Below, piece after piece: positions 2,415 through 61,746 of a stretch of 64,000 nucleotides of DNA. Positions within the stretch are counted from its first letter, which is position 1; the number at the start of each line of letters is the position of its first letter. The stretch is from positions 1 to 64,000 of the forward strand of contig NZ_CCRF01000102.1 in NCBI RefSeq assembly GCF_000751775.1. The letters run 5' to 3'. A program made the position numbers and the translations under genes. The notes under the pieces are model-generated. The model saw only the letters and a program-made list of their open reading frames with translations, ran no database searches and was not told the origin of the DNA. Origin of the DNA: Caldibacillus thermoamylovorans (lineage in GTDB: Bacteria; Bacillota; Bacilli; Bacillales; Caldibacillaceae).

Positions 2415-3701
2415 TCAGGAGTTTTTCACCTGCTCCATTTCTTCTTCCGTCAGCGTTTCCCTCCAAACGTTGGCCCCTAAACCTTGAAGCTTTTCGACAA
2501 CATGACTGTATCCGCGATCAATATGTTCGACACCGGTTATTTCCGTTAACCCCCGTGCCATTAAACCGGCTATTAAAAGTGATGCACCGGCCCGTAAATC
2601 AGTTGCTTTTACTTTCGCTCCGTTTAATTGGACGGGACCGGTAATAATGGCTGATCTGCCCTCCACTTTAATATTTGCATTCATTCTTCTTAATTCGTCA
2701 ATATGTTTGAATCGGGCAGAATAGATCGTATCTGTCACCACACTAGTTCCTTCCGCATTAGTTAGTAATGCTGTCATCGGCTGCTGAAGATCGGTAGGAA
2801 ATCCGGGATATACCAATGTCTTTATATCAGCGGCAACGAGCTTTTTCGCCTTTGAGATATAGACTTGATCATCTGATGTTTCAACAGACACACCCATTTC
2901 TCTTAATTTTGCAATGAGCGACTCCAGATGGTAGGGAATAACATTGTCGACAAGAACTCCTCTACCCATTGCCGAGGCTAAAATCATATATGTACCCGCC
3001 TCAATACGATCGGGAATGATCGTATGTCGGCATCCGTGTAAATGGTCTACTCCTTCAATCCGGATAATATCGGTACCGGCACCTTTAATTTTTGCCCCCA
3101 TATTGGTTAACAATGTAGCAACATCAATAATTTCCGGTTCTTTTGCAGCATTTTCAATTACTGTCTTTCCTTTTGCCCGAACTGCTGCCAACATAATATT
3201 GATCGTCGCCCCGACACTGACTACATCAAGATAAATGCGTGCTCCTTTCAATTCATCGGCACGTAAATAGATGGCGCCCTGTTCATTCGTTACTTTTGCA
3301 CCAAGCGCTTCGAAGCCTTTAATATGTTGATCAATTGGACGGGGACCTAAATGACAGCCGCCCGGCAAACCAATGACAGCTTTTTTGAAACGTCCGAGCA
3401 TGGCACCCATTAAATAATAGGAAGCGCGCAGTTTTTTCACCTTGCCATTCGGGAGCGGCATTGATGTCATCATTGATGGATCGATTGTTATATCTTGATC
3501 TTCTAAGTGTACAACACCACCGATTTCTTCTAACAATTTTTTCAAGATTTCAACATCTGAAATTTCCGGTAATCCTTCGATGGTTACAGGAGATTCAGCG
3601 AGAATACTTGCCGGGATTAATGCAACGGCACTATTTTTTGCACCGCTTATTTTGACAGATCCTTTTAATGTTTTTCCACCAATGACTTTTATTTTATCCA
3701 T
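2415..3701 (-). CDS. murAB: UDP-N-acetylglucosamine 1-carboxyvinyltransferase 2
   Basis: First committed enzyme of peptidoglycan synthesis: transfers enolpyruvate from PEP to UDP-GlcNAc in the cytoplasm; the target of fosfomycin. The 428-residue protein carries Lys22 in AKNS and the catalytic cysteine at residue 116 in [11 protein letters not shown], which predicts fosfomycin sensitivity. I start at the ATG at 3701 ([10 protein letters not shown]) because it matches family N-termini and follows GGGAG by 6 nt; an upstream in-frame ATG at 3749 would add 16 unsupported residues. It matches the second Bacillus paralogue (murAB/murZ) better than murAA, and the position next to glpX agrees. Confidence 0.95.
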
Positions 3702-12002: not shown

Positions 12003-12907
12003 TCTTGATATCAATTAGTAACTACAAATAAAGAAAACTCGGGCGTCCGAGGCTTTAGGCAACCAAGAGCCGTCGCAAGCCAACATTTTCGCTTGCGAGG
12101 TCATGCGACCGAAGCTTCTCTATTCACCGAAAAAAAGAGAACCTTTTTCGGCTGCGATTGTATACCGGGAAGCTTTCCTTATACACTTATACGTAACTCT
12201 TAACATTTCCCATCACGTCAAATTCGATTCTTTGCTGGATATTTATCCTTTCTTAACGTGTACCAAAAGGTTTATGATTCATCCTCTCATCAAGTAGTTC
12301 ACAACGAAACGGAAACATCTTTTTATATTACATTAAATAGCAAACCTAATATTTTTCTAATGTTTTTTGGTTATTTTAGCAAATAGGAAAGTATTTCTTT
12401 GGCGTTCACTTAAATGCTATTGAATGTAGATTTTCAAAAAAACATTTGTGATCATGGCATAACTGAAAATTCGTACAGCTTCTGGTTATGATAAATCATT
12501 TGGAAGAAGCCCCTTGCTTCTAATTATTCAGTAACCCAAAATAAAAAGAGAAGGCGTATGAATTTATTTCATGCGCCTCCTTACAAATCGACATGCACAA
12601 CATGAAAACCACACACTTCCACCATGCACAGTTGCTCATTTGTCAAATCTGCTGTCAAGTGCTCCCATAATCAACAAAAAGAGGTTGGTCAATCACAGGG
12701 TGCGTAAATTATTTCTGATTTTTTCAAAAATAATTTATAAAATTCAACGCGTCGTTGGTTGATTTTTAAAAAAAATCAGATGGGATAAGCCGCCACCTTT
12801 TTCTTGAAACAAGATAAAAATTTTTACATTGCAAAAAGCTTAGTATAGATTTATTCTTTTTTAGAGAAGGTGTTTTTGTTAAAATGGGGTGAAAGGAGTG
12901 AAGCGGT
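12003..12907. other. Gene-free region at the right edge of the inserted module
   Basis: About 900 bp. It contains dispersed repeat copy A (12029-12263) and a hairpin GGCGTATGAA/TTCATGCGCC (about 12553-12577). No open frame is supported: the plus-strand frame at 12103-12297 is largely the repeat itself. Confidence 0.5.
12029..12263 (+). repeat. Dispersed structured repeat, copy A
   Basis: Starts AAAGAAAACTCGGGCGTCCG and ends TTTCTTAACGTGTA. It matches copies at 25508-25638, 38806-38876 and 61609-61746, but carries about 80 bp of extra sequence in the middle. The conserved right half contains TTTGCTGG-ATATTTAT and pairs with an upstream ATTTCC. Confidence 0.75.
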
Positions 12908-25452: not shown

Positions 25453-25866
25453 AAAAATCCCCCTTATAAAATATAAGTATCTTAAAAACTATGTATATAG
25501 TTTTTTTAATACGTTAAGAAAGTATAAATTTCCAGCAAAGAAGCGAATTCGACGTAGTTGGAAATTTTAAGAATTAAGTATAAGTGCTCTTGCGGCTTTG
25601 CCATCGCCTAAAGGCTCGGACGCCCGAGTTTTCTTTAAAATTGAACAAATTTCCTTTCTACCCAGCTTCTTGTACTTCTAAAACAATTCCAAAGCCCGTT
25701 CACCCCTATTGTTAACGGTTACAAAATTATGCAGATGATAGAAAAGCTCTTGAAACACATTGACTGAACGCTCGCTCGATGATGTATCTAAAGGTAGAGG
25801 GGAAATCTAATCCATCCCCTCCACTATCTATTAATATAATAAATTTATTTTTTGCTCATGACAAAT
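25453..25866. other. Intergenic region between fadF and the thiolase gene
   Basis: About 410 bp. It holds dispersed repeat copy B (25508-25638) and a hairpin GAGGGGA (25797-25803)/TCCCCTC (25815-25821) just after fadF that may be a weak terminator on the minus strand (trailing TACCTTTAG). No promoter for the thiolase operon is evident. Confidence 0.55.
25508..25638 (-). repeat. Dispersed structured repeat, copy B
   Basis: On the minus strand it reads AAAGAAAACTCGGGCGTCCG at the start and ends GGAAATTTATACTTTCTTAA-CGTAT. It shares nearly every base of the right half with copy C at 61609-61746. Predicted hairpins: CTCGG/CCGAG, GCCT/AGGC, GGC/GCC and AAATTTCC/GGAAATTT. Confidence 0.85.
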
Positions 25867-28977: not shown

Positions 28978-29445
28978 GTGGAAGAACTCTTGAATCAAAT
29001 TTTACACGAGGTAAAAGAAATTAAGCAGGGACAAGTCCGACTCGAAACAAGGATGGACAAGCTTGAGCAAAACCAAGAACAGTTAGTTTTAAGAATGGAC
29101 AAACTTGAATCCCGGATGGACAAGCTTGAATCCCGAATGGACAAGCTTGAATCCCGAATGGACAAGCTTGAATCCCGAATGGACAAGCTTGAATCCCGAA
29201 TGGATAAGCTTGAACATAATCAGGAACAGTTGGCAATGAATATGAATAAGCTGGGAACCCGGATGGGCAATCTCGAAAAAAATCAAAGTGAACTTGAAGT
29301 TAAAATTAACAATCTCGGTACAGAACTTCGGAGTAACTTTAGTTATACGAACAGCAAACTGGATGAACATCGACAAGTGTTTAATATTGTCTCCGAAAAG
29401 TTTAAAAAAGTAGAGATGGACATTGACGCAATCATGAGTAGATAA
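28978..29445 (+). CDS. Coiled-coil protein with a tandem heptad repeat
   Basis: 155 residues predicted to be almost wholly alpha-helical coiled coil. Residues 40-81 are six copies of a seven-residue unit MDKLESR (the last changed to MDKLEHN), each encoded by a 21-bp repeat (29095-29220). Flanking text (ETRMDKLEQNQEQL, TRMGNLEKNQSELEVKINNL) is a degenerate form of the same heptad. GTG start with GGGAG upstream. It has no signal peptide or membrane segment. Function unknown; similar proteins in bacilli are annotated only as hypothetical. A clear terminator follows. Confidence 0.8.
   Translation: MEELLNQILHEVKEIKQGQVRLETRMDKLEQNQEQLVLRMDKLESRMDKLESRMDKLESRMDKLESRMDKLESRMDKLEHNQEQLAMNMNKLGTRMGNLEKNQSELEVKINNLGTELRSNFSYTNSKLDEHRQVFNIVSEKFKKVEMDIDAIMSR
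29095..29220 (+). repeat. 21-bp in-frame tandem repeat, six copies
   Basis: Unit ATGGACAAGCTTGAATCCCG plus one base, starting at 29095, 29116, 29137, 29158, 29179 and 29200. Copies 2-5 are nearly identical, implying recent expansion or homogenisation; copies 1 and 6 carry substitutions. Confidence 0.95.
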
Positions 29446-36547: not shown

Positions 36548-37852
36548 TTATCCATTTATCCCAAGCAATTCCTTAATTTGTCTTTTCTCATTTTTCTTGG
36601 TCGATTCATCCTTCAAGAGATCAAGAGGAAAGTATAACTTATGGTCGGTTCTTCGTTTCCCGCTGATTGCTTCAACAATTTCCGATTGTCGGGACAGTTC
36701 CCGAATTTCTCCATTCGACATCGATAACTGGATCGGCAGTCTCTCTTCCTCTTCCCCCGGTCTGTAAAAATCATAGGGGAGATCCGAGGAAGAGTCCAGA
36801 ACTAAATAATATTCAGGATTTATCCCTGCATCTGTAAACAATGTTACCAGTTTCATATACTTTTTATATTCAGTTGCAGGGTCAAATTCGATATATTTGA
36901 ATAAGTGCCTGTTTAAAAAGCGATAGCATAAGTCTTTCAAAATCGGGTCGTCCTCTTCTTGCCATACATGGAAATAATAAAGAACGACGGATTCATCCAA
37001 TTCGAGATAATCTTTTAATTTCGGTTTTCCTTCAAACAATGTAACAAAATGTTTCGGTTCGTGTTTGAAATGATAAAATTGCTCATGTAATTCTTTGGCA
37101 CGGTGAAGAATTTTTTGTAAAATGACTTCACCGGAACGCGAAACCGGGTGAAAATACACTTGCCAATACATTTGATAGCGGCTCATAATATAGTCTTCAA
37201 CCGCATGCATGCCGCTCTTTTTAAAGACAACTTGATCCTCTTTTGGTCGCATCACCCTAAGGATTCGCTCCATGTCGAAATGACCATAGCTAACACCGGT
37301 AAAATAGGCATCTCTTAATAAGTAATCCATTCGATCTGCGTCAATTTGACTGGAAATCAGGCTAATGACCAATTTCTTTTCCGATGTTTTTGCAATCACT
37401 TCCGCCACCTTTTTGGGGAAATCTGCCGAAACCAATCTGAGAACTTGATTTACTTCCGTATCCCCCATAATGATCGCCTGGGTAAAATATTCATGATCAA
37501 ACTGGAAAACTTTCTCAAATGCATGAGAAAACGGACCGTGTCCTAAATCATGTAAAAGAGCTGCACAAAGGGACAAAAGCCGATCGGATTCATCCCACTC
37601 CTGCCTCCCCTTAAAAACATCATCAACAATGCGGCGAACAATTTCATACACACCGAGGGAATGGCTGAAACGGCTATGTTCGGCGCCGTGGAAGGTCAGA
37701 AATGTTGTCCCGAGCTGCTTGATTCTTCTTAAACGTTGAAATTCCTTTGTCCCGACCAAATCCCAAATGACCCGGTCACGAACATGAATATAGCGATGAA
37801 CAGGGTCTTTGAACACTTTCTCTTCTCTTAATTTTTCCATTGCATAACTCAT
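36548..37852 (-). CDS. ywfO: HD-domain phosphohydrolase YwfO (dGTPase-like)
   Basis: 434 residues with the HD metal site EHSRFSHSLGVYEIV ... LLHDLGHGPFSHAFE (His, His-Asp) in the first 120 residues and a distal Asp in IDADRMDYLLRD. The family hydrolyses deoxynucleoside triphosphates. ATG at 37852 with AGAGGG 6 nt upstream. It heads a pair with ywgA. A long non-coding repeat array lies upstream. Confidence 0.9.
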   Translation of the reverse strand: MSYAMEKLREEKVFKDPVHRYIHVRDRVIWDLVGTKEFQRLRRIKQLGTTFLTFHGAEHSRFSHSLGVYEIVRRIVDDVFKGRQEWDESDRLLSLCAALLHDLGHGPFSHAFEKVFQFDHEYFTQAIIMGDTEVNQVLRLVSADFPKKVAEVIAKTSEKKLVISLISSQIDADRMDYLLRDAYFTGVSYGHFDMERILRVMRPKEDQVVFKKSGMHAVEDYIMSRYQMYWQVYFHPVSRSGEVILQKILHRAKELHEQFYHFKHEPKHFVTLFEGKPKLKDYLELDESVVLYYFHVWQEEDDPILKDLCYRFLNRHLFKYIEFDPATEYKKYMKLVTLFTDAGINPEYYLVLDSSSDLPYDFYRPGEEEERLPIQLSMSNGEIRELSRQSEIVEAISGKRRTDHKLYFPLDLLKDESTKKNEKRQIKELLGING

Positions 37853-38082
37853 ATGGAACCCTCTTCCTTTATTTCATGTTTCCATTATATCGACTTTTCG
37901 TGCTCGTTTCATCATAAGAAAGAAATTTTTTAAAACTGTCGACACGTCGTACAAATATTGCTTTTTAATGCACATATCATACGATAACAATTTTTCTCTT
38001 TTTTCACCCCTGGTAAAATTGGTTTACTATAAAGAAAACTTGATTAGGGCGAACCAATGTTGTCTTACTACATGGGTGACTA

Positions 38083-38757
38083 TTGGACAAAATCAGCAAA
38101 AGTTGAAGCAAAATTGGCTCATAGAACGGCACTATGAGACAAAATTTGTTGAAAATCAAGCCAAAATGTCCCATAGAAATTGCCCGGATCCCCTGCTATG
38201 GGACAAAATTAGCGATAGTTGAAGCAAAATTGGCTCATAGAACGGCTATATGAGACAGAATTAGTTGATAATCAAGCCAAAATGTCCCATAGAATTGCCT
38301 GGATCCCCTGCTATGGGACAAAATCAGTGGAAATCGAAGCAAAAGTGTCTCATAGAACGGCACTATGAGACAGAATTAGTTGATAATCAAGCCAAAATGT
38401 CCCATAGAATTACCCGGATCCCCTGCTATGGGACAAAACCAGCGGTAGCTGAAGCAAAAATGGCTCATAGAACGGCTATATGAGACAAAATTAGTTGAAA
38501 AGCAAGCCAAAATGTCCCATAGAATTGCCCGGATCCCCTGCTATGGGACAAAACCAGCGGTAGCTGAAGCAAAAATGGCTCATAGAACGGCCCTATGAGA
38601 CAAAATTTGTGGAAAATCAAGTCAAAGTGTCCCATAGAATTGCCCGGATCCCCTGCTATGGGACAAAATCAGCGGAATTCGAAGCAAAAATGGCTCATAG
38701 AACGGCCCTATGAGACAAAATTTGTGGAAAATCAAGTCAAAGTGTCCCATAGAATTG
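38083..38757. repeat. Array of alternating hairpin repeats (about 116-bp double unit)
   Basis: About five and a half double units. Hairpin 1 is GTCCCATAG/CTATGGGAC with a loop containing CGGATCCCC; hairpin 2 is CTCATAG/CTATGAG with loop AACGGC. Each is followed by ACAAAAT or a near variant and about 28 nt of linker containing AAGC(A/C)AAA. The two half-units are homologous, so the basic unit is about 53-60 bp with diverged stems. Five copies of hairpin 1 and six of hairpin 2 are visible. It lies in the 1.07-kb gap between ywzC and ywfO, with no supported gene. Confidence 0.9.
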
Positions 38758-38805
38758 TCCGTATCTCACTCTATGGCCTTCCTTGCACAACGAAGTTTTC
38801 CTTTT

Positions 38806-38876
38806 GCACTATTCCTAAAAATTTCCCGCTGAGTCGAATTCACTTCCCTGCTGGAAATTTATATGCTTAATGTATA
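38806..38876 (+). repeat. Dispersed structured repeat, copy D (right half only)
   Basis: AAAATTTCCCGCTGAGTCGA ... TGCTGGAAATTTATATGCTTAATGTATA matches the right half of copies B and C, including the AAATTTCC/GGAAATTT stem; it abuts the hairpin array. Confidence 0.75.
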
Positions 38877-38903
38877 AAAAAGAGGCTGACGATTACGCCA
38901 ACC
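38875..38903 (-). terminator. Terminator after ywzC
   Basis: Minus strand GGTTGGCG/CGTCAGCC (38884-38891 and 38896-38903; two G-U pairs) followed by TCTTTTTTA. Confidence 0.75.
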
Positions 38904-38918
38904 CGTACCCACGCCTAC

Positions 38919-39143
38919 TTACATTTTCAATTTTTGTTTTACTTTCTCCATTAATTCATCTTCAGTCAGTGCCGCTACCGGTCGGTTATTGACAAAAGTG
39001 AATGTTTTTTTTCGCCCTGGTCCGCAATAAGATTGACAACCAATTTTTATAGTTGCATCGGGATCGAGTTCTTTCAATTTTAGAATCAATGTTTTTAAAT
39101 TTACAGCTTGACAATCATCGCAAACCCGAAATTCGTTTGCCAT
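38919..39143 (-). CDS. ywzC: DUF1450 protein YwzC
   Basis: 74-residue protein with Cys-rich motifs [11 protein letters not shown] and [21 protein letters not shown], matching B. subtilis YwzC; four cysteines could bind metal or an iron-sulfur centre. ATG at 39143 matches the family start, though the AAAGGA site is about 11 nt away. Divergent from rsfA. Function unknown. Confidence 0.88.
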
Positions 39144-39316
39144 TTTACGTACAATCCTTTCAAATAAAATATCAGTCAACCCTAGTGGGGATAGCTAATT
39201 CGTCACTAAATGGTATTGTACAACCAAAAAATACATATATCAAGTGAATCAAAACGACATCCGGGTTGTTATACGCAAAAAAATATTAAAAAACTATTAT
39301 CCTTTTATCTTTTATT

Positions 39317-55382: not shown

Positions 55383-55690
55383 TTAAAGGGTTTGGACTTG
55401 TCTGGCTATCCGACATCGGCAAGCTGTTGACTTGATCGGTGCAACTGACTATCGATCCGAAATCTACCGGGAATTCTAATAGAGAGCAAGTGTTTTTACT
55501 TGATAACCTACTCGATACCGGCAGCCTATTCAGTTGACCGGTGCAACTGACAACCGATCCGAACACTACAGGGAATTCTAATAGAGAGCAAGTGTTTTTA
55601 CTTGATAACCAACTCGATATCGGCAGCCTATTCAGTTGACCGGTGCAACTGTAACGGGTTTTGACTTGACAGACGATTCGACATTTAAGG
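55383..55690. repeat. 102-bp tandem repeat after the araC gene
   Basis: GAATTCTAATAGAGAGCAAG occurs at 55471 and 55573, and CGGCAGCCTATTCAGTTGAC at about 55519 and 55621, giving a 102-bp period over about 2.5 units. A further diverged element, GGGTTTGGACTTG after the araC stop, recurs as GGGTTTTGACTTG near 55657. Each unit includes a CAAGTG/CACTTG-like hairpin. The rest of the 560-bp gap up to 55942 has no gene. Confidence 0.85.
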
Positions 55691-57121: not shown

Positions 57122-57208
57122 ATTTCTAACGGATTTCATGGGAGTTTGTTTTGCAATGCGAAACAAACCACACTCGTCGGCAAAGTTGTGCTTTTCTCGG
57201 CCCAAGAT

Positions 57209-57883
57209 GGTGACGAGATTGATTCTCGTCGCCAAAATCGGGCATTTTTCACTTCAAAAAGGTGACGAGATTAGGTTTCGTCGCCAAAATTGAGAGGTTT
57301 TCGACCAAAAACGGTGACGAGAACAAGCCTCGACGCCAAAAATGAGCATTTTTCGCCTCAAAACGGTGACGAGATTAGGTTTCGTCGCTAAAATTATGCG
57401 TTTCTTGCCTTAAAATAGCGACGAGAAAGGGTCTCGTCGCCAAAATCGGGCATTTTTTACCGCAAAATGGTGACGAGATTGATTCTCGTCGCCAAAATCG
57501 GGCATTTTTTACTTCAAAACGGTGACGAGAAAGGGTCTCGTCGCCAAAATCGGGCATTTTTTACTTCAAAACGGTGACGAGAAAGGGTCTCGTCGTCAAA
57601 ATAGTGCGTTTTTCACTGGAAAATGGTGACGAGAATAGGTTTCGTCGCCAAAATAGGATGTTTTTCGCCCAAAAAAGGTGACGAGATTGATTCTCGTCGC
57701 CAAAATCGGACATTTTTTACCTCAAAATAGCGACGAGAAAGGGTCTCGTCGCCAAAATAGAGCCTTTTTCACTTCAAAAAGGTGACGAGATCGGATTTCG
57801 TCGTCAAAAAAAGGAGTTTCCCGGCTCAAAATGACGGCGAGAACAGACTTTGTCGCCAAAATAGACCGCTGCTCGGACATTTC
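57209..57883. repeat. 52-bp hairpin repeat array, 13 units
   Basis: Thirteen units of about 52 bp, each beginning GGTGACGAGA (or AGCGACGAGA) and pairing across 5-6 nt with TCTCGTCGCC, followed by AAAAT and about 25 nt of linker with GGGCATTTTT. Units 6 and 7 are nearly identical. Stem changes are mostly wobble-compatible (T-G to C-G in units 5 and 11; G-T in units 2, 4 and 9). It fills the gap between convergent bshB2 and the AidB-like gene; no frame in it is supported. Confidence 0.92.
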
Positions 57884-61608: not shown

Positions 61609-61746
61609 ATAAAGAAAACTCGGCGACTGCCAAGCCTTCAGGCGACGGCAGAGCCGTAGTTGCGCTTATACTTAATTCTTAAAATTTCCCACTACGTCGA
61701 ATTCGCTTCTTTGCTGGAAATTTATACATTCTTAACGTATAAGAAA
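61609..61746 (+). repeat. Dispersed structured repeat, copy C
   Basis: ATAAAGAAAACTCGGCGACT at the start and GGAAATTTATACATTCTTAA-CGTATAA at the end; contains TTCAGGCGACGGCAGAGCCG and AAAATTTCCCACTACGTCGA. It starts 10 bp upstream of the merR promoter. The remaining DNA to 61970 has no supported gene. Confidence 0.85.

Follow-up and report, generated by a model that had tools for sequence, protein, structure and literature searches.

The window analysed here is a stretch of 64,000 nucleotides from Caldibacillus thermoamylovorans. It carries two tandem arrays of palindromic units, one at about 38 kb (family A) and one at about 57 kb (family B). The features concerned are given below, each with the basis of its call in brackets.

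36548..37852, minus strand: flanking gene for an HD-domain protein (Pfam PF01966 and PF19276)
38080..38770, plus strand: family A tandem array of alternating 52-bp and 63-bp palindromic units, 6 copies of a 115-bp repeat (TRF, unit reading and spacing scan)
38284..38319, plus strand: example of the 63-bp-type palindrome, GTCCCATAG, 18-bp spacer, CTATGGGAC (fold z = -1.97)
38347..38371, plus strand: example of the 52-bp-type palindrome, GTCTCATAG, 7-bp spacer, CTATGAGAC (single-stranded DNA fold z = -4.05)
38833..38879, plus strand: right half of a dispersed fold-back repeat, separate from and beside the 38-kb array (repeat comparison)
38919..39179, minus strand: flanking gene on the other side, for a DUF1450 protein; the open reading frame stops at 38919 and its start codon is uncertain (Pfam PF07293 and ORF)
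57174..57864, plus strand: family B (GACGAG) tandem array of 52-bp units, each a 9-bp arm, a 7-bp spacer and a 9-bp arm, then AAAA (TRF, genome DNA similarity and spacing scan)

The HD-domain gene is presumably ywfO-like. TRF places the 38-kb array at 38,080-38,765 with a period of 115 bp, 6.0 copies and 91% matches, and a unit-by-unit reading resolves this higher-order repeat into one 52-bp and one 63-bp hairpin unit in alternation. Both analyses confirm what an earlier note had read from the letters of the window, namely that two hairpin stems alternate here in tandem; the unit length of about 52-58 bp given in that note has to be replaced by 52 and 63 bp, and the spacers measure 7 and 18 bp, respectively. 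Each unit consists of a 9-bp arm, the spacer, a second 9-bp arm, and then AAAA and a linker of ~27 bp, close to the 28 nt stated before. The arms are GTCCCATAG and CTATGGGAC in the 63-bp unit, and GTCTCATAG (mostly GGCTCATAG) and CTATGAGAC in the 52-bp unit. The second stem, read previously as CTCATAG/CTATGAG, is present but extends to 9 bp where it is intact (GTCTCATAG/CTATGAGAC at 38,347-38,371). The 57-kb array follows the same plan, as had been noticed, with a 9-7-9 palindrome and a 52-bp period.

The junction 3' of the arm in the 38-kb array is (G/C)CAAAA. CAAAAT, which had been proposed as the conserved element, is its commonest version and holds a fixed place after the arm. Taken alone, it is not more frequent in the window than expected (142 vs 146), and we therefore rejected it as a conserved site, since it is special only in that fixed place. 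The expectation that CAAAA follows hairpins more often than by chance was borne out: seven perfect 9-bp hairpins followed by CAAAA occur in the window, all within the two arrays, whereas 20 first-order Markov simulations of the window gave 0.05 on average and 1 at most.

Dispersal, ends and turnover of the two families

Both families are dispersed over the genome. Counting by DNA similarity to the two window arrays and by the periodic pattern GACAAAA x 3, with intervals merged by hand, we obtained ~67 loci (at least 65), which make up 38 kb or 1.03% of the 3.7 Mb genome. The periodic pattern has 96 matches in the genome and its reversed control none. All arrays counted are stacks between genes. 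The CATAG/AATAG family, i.e. family A and its GTCCAATAG branch, accounts for ~27 loci and the GACGAG family, i.e. family B, for ~40. Arrays reach about 22 units in length, and seven loci touch the start of a contig, which indicates that the assembly breaks at arrays and that the copy numbers are lower bounds. The collections of phages and plasmids gave no match to the arrays.

Some family B arrays sit between terminal inverted repeats CTTGAGTTTCGCAYC, and most have no recognisable ends. Where the ends are present they enclose a variable number of units, end-(52-bp unit)n-end, and n can be as low as about one. Short copies with one or a few units between these inverted ends are found at L221 (C35:71616-71738, 123 bp), L223 (C38, about 67.9 kb, 91 bp) and L215 (C84:20045-20261, 217 bp), and long copies with many units between the same ends at L047 (851 bp) and L048. 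We observed 7-bp target duplications of TAAATAA at L047 and ATTCTTA at L048, both matching at 7/7 positions, and of 6/7 at L223; the duplications at L044, L215 and L221 are degenerate. Family B thus has a BOX-like composite plan of end module, variable tandem cores and end module, which was seen in this family only. Comparison of the flanks of family A arrays within and between loci gave no excess of inverted flanks and no recognisable inverted-repeat ends, and target duplications could not be made out for this family.

A common flanking enzyme gene, suggested by the earlier note, was not found; the genes beside one window array are unrelated to those beside the other. Our search of the genome for the Y1 transposase family gave no intact mobilising gene; the sole match is partial (profile positions 75-121 of 121) and has an internal stop. 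The CTTGAGTTTCGCAYC end pattern was searched genome-wide, and in the loci inspected from that search we saw no copy that bears a transposase. Long open frames cross GACGAG arrays, including L062 (about 1.1 kb), L064 and L066, as reported for large BOX elements, and these frames are probably fortuitous because 52 is not divisible by 3.

The DUF1450 and HD-domain genes lie 1,057 bp apart in the window and 122 bp apart in Pallidibacillus pasinlerensis, where the array is absent. That genome has two other arrays a few genes away, at a place where the gap in the window is about 145 bp. In a genome of the same genus (G001) the two genes that flank the 57-kb array have no array between them and enclose a different stretch of ~900 bp instead. 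Both window arrays are hence lineage-specific, being missing at the orthologous sites of congeners.

Families A and B have in common the 9-7-9 palindrome, the 52-bp period and the positions of their A-tracts. At C84:15,019-15,174 a hybrid hairpin, with left arm GTCTAATAG and right arm GTTTGTCTCC, links a GTCYAATAG array to the GACGAG array that follows it, nearly in register (arm-end spacings of 53, 50 and 52); this junction is a single locus. Because of the common geometry and the junction near register, the two families are probably one class with varying stems, in agreement with the earlier proposal, and arrays on the same plan with other stems occur in many genera across the order. Family A is grouped with family B by class and not by ends of its own, since its ends were not found. 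Its status as an element rests on its copy number, its absence in a congener, its likeness to family B and the one junction with it.

Spacing in whole helical turns

The geometry was measured on 56 stretches around the matches and on the window, with a spacing scan that permitted spacers of 7 or 18 bp only. Neighbouring right arms are 52 bp (n=251) or 63 bp (n=19) apart, or multiples of these (104, 115 and 156), and few other values occur. With the loop left free (repeated arms followed by AAA) the scan gave loops of 7, 9, 18 and 20, plus 25-29; loops 9 and 20 are the same hairpins as 7 and 18, read one outer pair further out, and at 25-29 the scan took the linker for a loop. The distances of 52 and 63 bp are close to five and six helical turns, and the two spacers differ by one turn. 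In both families, in spite of their different sequences, A-tracts occupy linker positions 0-1, 11-12 and 22, that is ~11 bp apart. Scored at 10.4 bp (52/5) for 52-bp arrays, the phase coherence of the A-tracts exceeds that of within-unit shuffles in the 38-kb window array and in most family B arrays; the family B loci are homologous, so their combined p does not stand for independent events. Outside this genome phasing has modest support (combined p about 0.006-0.008 for 17-18 arrays, not all independent). The constant feature of the arrays is the integral-turn spacing with the 9-7-9 palindrome and the phased A-tracts, and not CAAAAT itself.

The periodic GACAAAA pattern was found in 39/150 genomes of the order. 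A number of genomes have matches to the reversed control as well, mostly only a few each, and low counts are therefore not to be read as arrays. Among the matches listed, those of hairpin type mostly span 109-111 bp (periods of 51-52 bp), and some others resemble coding repeats with other periods. The stems in these genomes include GTCCTTCAT, GTCTTTCAT, GTCYAATAG and GTCTTCATA, and consensus units in many of them have 9- to 10-bp arms around a 7-bp spacer. The 52-bp arrays at L187 and L198 have no palindrome.

We also considered 80 HD-domain-gene loci of Bacillaceae, picked for this gene only and not for arrays. A period of 51-53 bp was found in 18 of the 19 arrays with a smallest period of 31-124 bp; several of the 18 are of a common sequence family, which leaves about 14 distinct ones, by eye. 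Many other arrays in this sample, some of which may be coding, have a period of 20-21 bp. Downstream of the HD-domain gene lies a gene pair, and the gap that follows this pair is occupied in different genera by unrelated 52-bp arrays or by 41/42-bp arrays; this corresponds to a between-species form of the stem-exchange test that the earlier note had suggested for strains. Our literature search for such arrays in Bacillaceae gave nothing relevant, but this does not establish that they are new.

In another family of the order, the loci L156-L159 of G012 have GTCCTTCAT and GTCYAATAG arrays with common flanking DNA, about 50 bp on the left and, in some pairs, several hundred bp on the right, which indicates that these arrays were copied together with their flanks. 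Periods of 20-21 / 40-42 bp, near whole helical turns, were observed in arrays, some perhaps coding, near the HD-domain gene of other Bacillaceae at L082, L087, L102, L106, L107, L109, L142 and L153.

Likeness to known repeats and rival explanations

The arrays are best filed as composite BOX/MITE-like repeats, of which the several stem families and the quantised spacing would be a variant. BOX of Streptococcus pneumoniae has the structure boxA-boxB(n)-boxC (PMC3049150). Like the arrays, it is intergenic and multi-copy, with variable tandem cores between ends and stem-loop potential, and like family B it has inverted ends and target duplications. Unlike BOX, the arrays have a core of 52/63 bp in whole turns, phased A-tracts and up to about 22 units, and family A has no recognisable ends. 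The likeness to BOX is claimed for the architecture only. The BrickBuilt MITE of Porphyromonas gingivalis is a minisatellite within a MITE with leader and tail, a single family with a 23-nt repeat in 19 copies (PMC4596501). It too is always intergenic with both ends in only some copies, whereas the unit here is a 52-bp palindrome at about 67 loci with several stem families. Bcr1 of the Bacillus cereus group (147-167 bp) and Bhal-1/Bhal-2 of B. halodurans (74-76 bp) are also intergenic stem-loop repeat families in Bacillaceae (PMC2267715). They are described at these lengths and not as 52-bp tandem arrays.

In BIMEs two palindrome types alternate, which the 38-kb array recalls. REP and BIME repeats resemble the arrays in being short palindromes with many intergenic copies, but the loops here are 7 and 18 and the arrays run head-to-tail rather than in head-to-head pairs. 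REP repeats that go with a RAYT transposase are GTAG- or CGTC-tagged (PMC3733652). We found neither GTAG nor CGTC as a tag at the stem foot; the arms start with GTC/GGY and end with GAC/GCC, then AAAA. Given the missing tag and the lack of an intact Y1 transposase in the genome, we rejected a REP/RAYT identity.

Our analysis suggests, with somewhat better than even confidence, that the arrays are BOX/BrickBuilt/MITE-like non-autonomous repeats with a tandemly expanding core, in which the integral helical spacing is kept probably for a protein that reads double-stranded DNA. Copies would be moved in trans by a transposase, and arrays would gain and lose units by slippage or by unequal crossing-over among them, of which the 115-bp higher-order repeat is the expected residue. 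That a protein reads the arrays, as the earlier note surmised, is plausible. This putative protein, a mobilising enzyme or a DNA-bending chromosomal protein, may read the palindromes on one face of curved double-stranded DNA, which would leave the arm sequence free to drift and to be exchanged while the spacing is fixed.

An alternative hypothesis could be that the arrays are selected chromosomal landmarks that benefit the cell, i.e. phased curved sites for a putative nucleoid, gyrase or chromosome-organising protein. The integral-turn spacing with phased A-tracts, the about 67 dispersed intergenic loci and the 51-53-bp period in unrelated sequences all agree with it. We nevertheless consider it unlikely, given that both window arrays are lineage-specific within the genus, that the GACAAAA form is present in only 39/150 genomes of the order and that family B has the ends of a mobile element.

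It is quite unlikely that the arrays act as RNA, with hairpins in the transcript that stop or attenuate transcription or protect 3' ends. In favour of such a role, the interval 37,850-38,930 contains six terminator-like sites vs 0.9 expected; five lie within the array, and all six are on the same strand as the flanking genes. The arrays are also opposed to co-directional neighbours at 19/25 loci (two-sided binomial p about 0.015). However, the T tract after the hairpin is short, the neighbours are convergent or divergent at 19/44 loci, and no Rfam match in the window reaches the gathering threshold. In >90% of GTCCAATAG-type units (a count that includes some reverse-strand units) positions 6 and 7 of the stem are mismatched, so the stem is not kept by compensation, and an RNA role does not predict the steps of 52/63 bp and 7/18 bp. 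It retains some weight, and an array could do both.

The fixed period disfavours ordinary local satellites, i.e. slippage of whatever sequence is present without dispersal or selection, and we regard them as very improbable. The homogeneity within loci and the 115-bp higher-order repeat would fit them, but the same family is found at tens of loci, the spacings are 52 or 63 with few intermediates, and 51-53 bp recurs in unrelated families. Hardly credible are tandem crossover sites of a tyrosine recombinase, whose cores have arms of about 9-13 bp around 6-8 bp, as only the geometry of the 9-7-9 palindromes speaks for them, 18-bp spacers alternate with 7 bp, which a fixed crossover region would not tolerate, and there are no cassettes between sites.

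Returning to the composite non-autonomous repeats, the part left unexplained is the quantised spacing common to unrelated sequences. We speculate, and only tentatively, that intergenic arrays of Bacillaceae are quantised in whole turns (about 21, 42, 52 and 63 bp) whatever their sequence, the reason being a conserved protein, DNA-organising or element-mobilising, that assembles along a single helical face; the arms would then drift and be exchanged, and the class would be defined by its geometry. The prediction is that adding half a turn disrupts the behaviour of an array and adding a whole turn does not. Selection for integral-turn spacing, if real, would point to a protein in a large and well-studied family of bacteria that reads palindromes by helix position more than by sequence, and a single description could cover many repeats that otherwise seem unrelated between species. 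Array length is a possible marker for strain typing, and arrays of this kind would account for assembly breaks in such genomes.

Other repeats were seen around the family A arrays. A downstream motif common to these arrays was tried as their own end and rejected, as it is half of the other, dispersed fold-back repeat and also stands alone. A common left module, CTGTGGTG..CTACATGGG, was rejected as well, being strong only between L020 and L036 and weak at L045. The fold-back repeat, whose right half has the consensus GTCGAATTCGCTTCTTTGCTGGAAATTTATACTTTCTTAACGTATAA, has four copies in the window (12217-12259, 25509-25553, 38833-38879 and 61696-61741), and its right half adjoins several family A arrays; the repeat is also present at L056 (6724-6772) and L219, and several of its copies have an upstream hairpin CTCGGCGATTGCCGAG. 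At L021 degenerate units with another stem (ATCGAGAC..) follow the family A array at about 3255-3500, possibly a second, decayed array. The window holds two further tandem repeats, at 29093-29214 (21-bp x 5.8) and at 55432-55651 (102-bp x 2.2).
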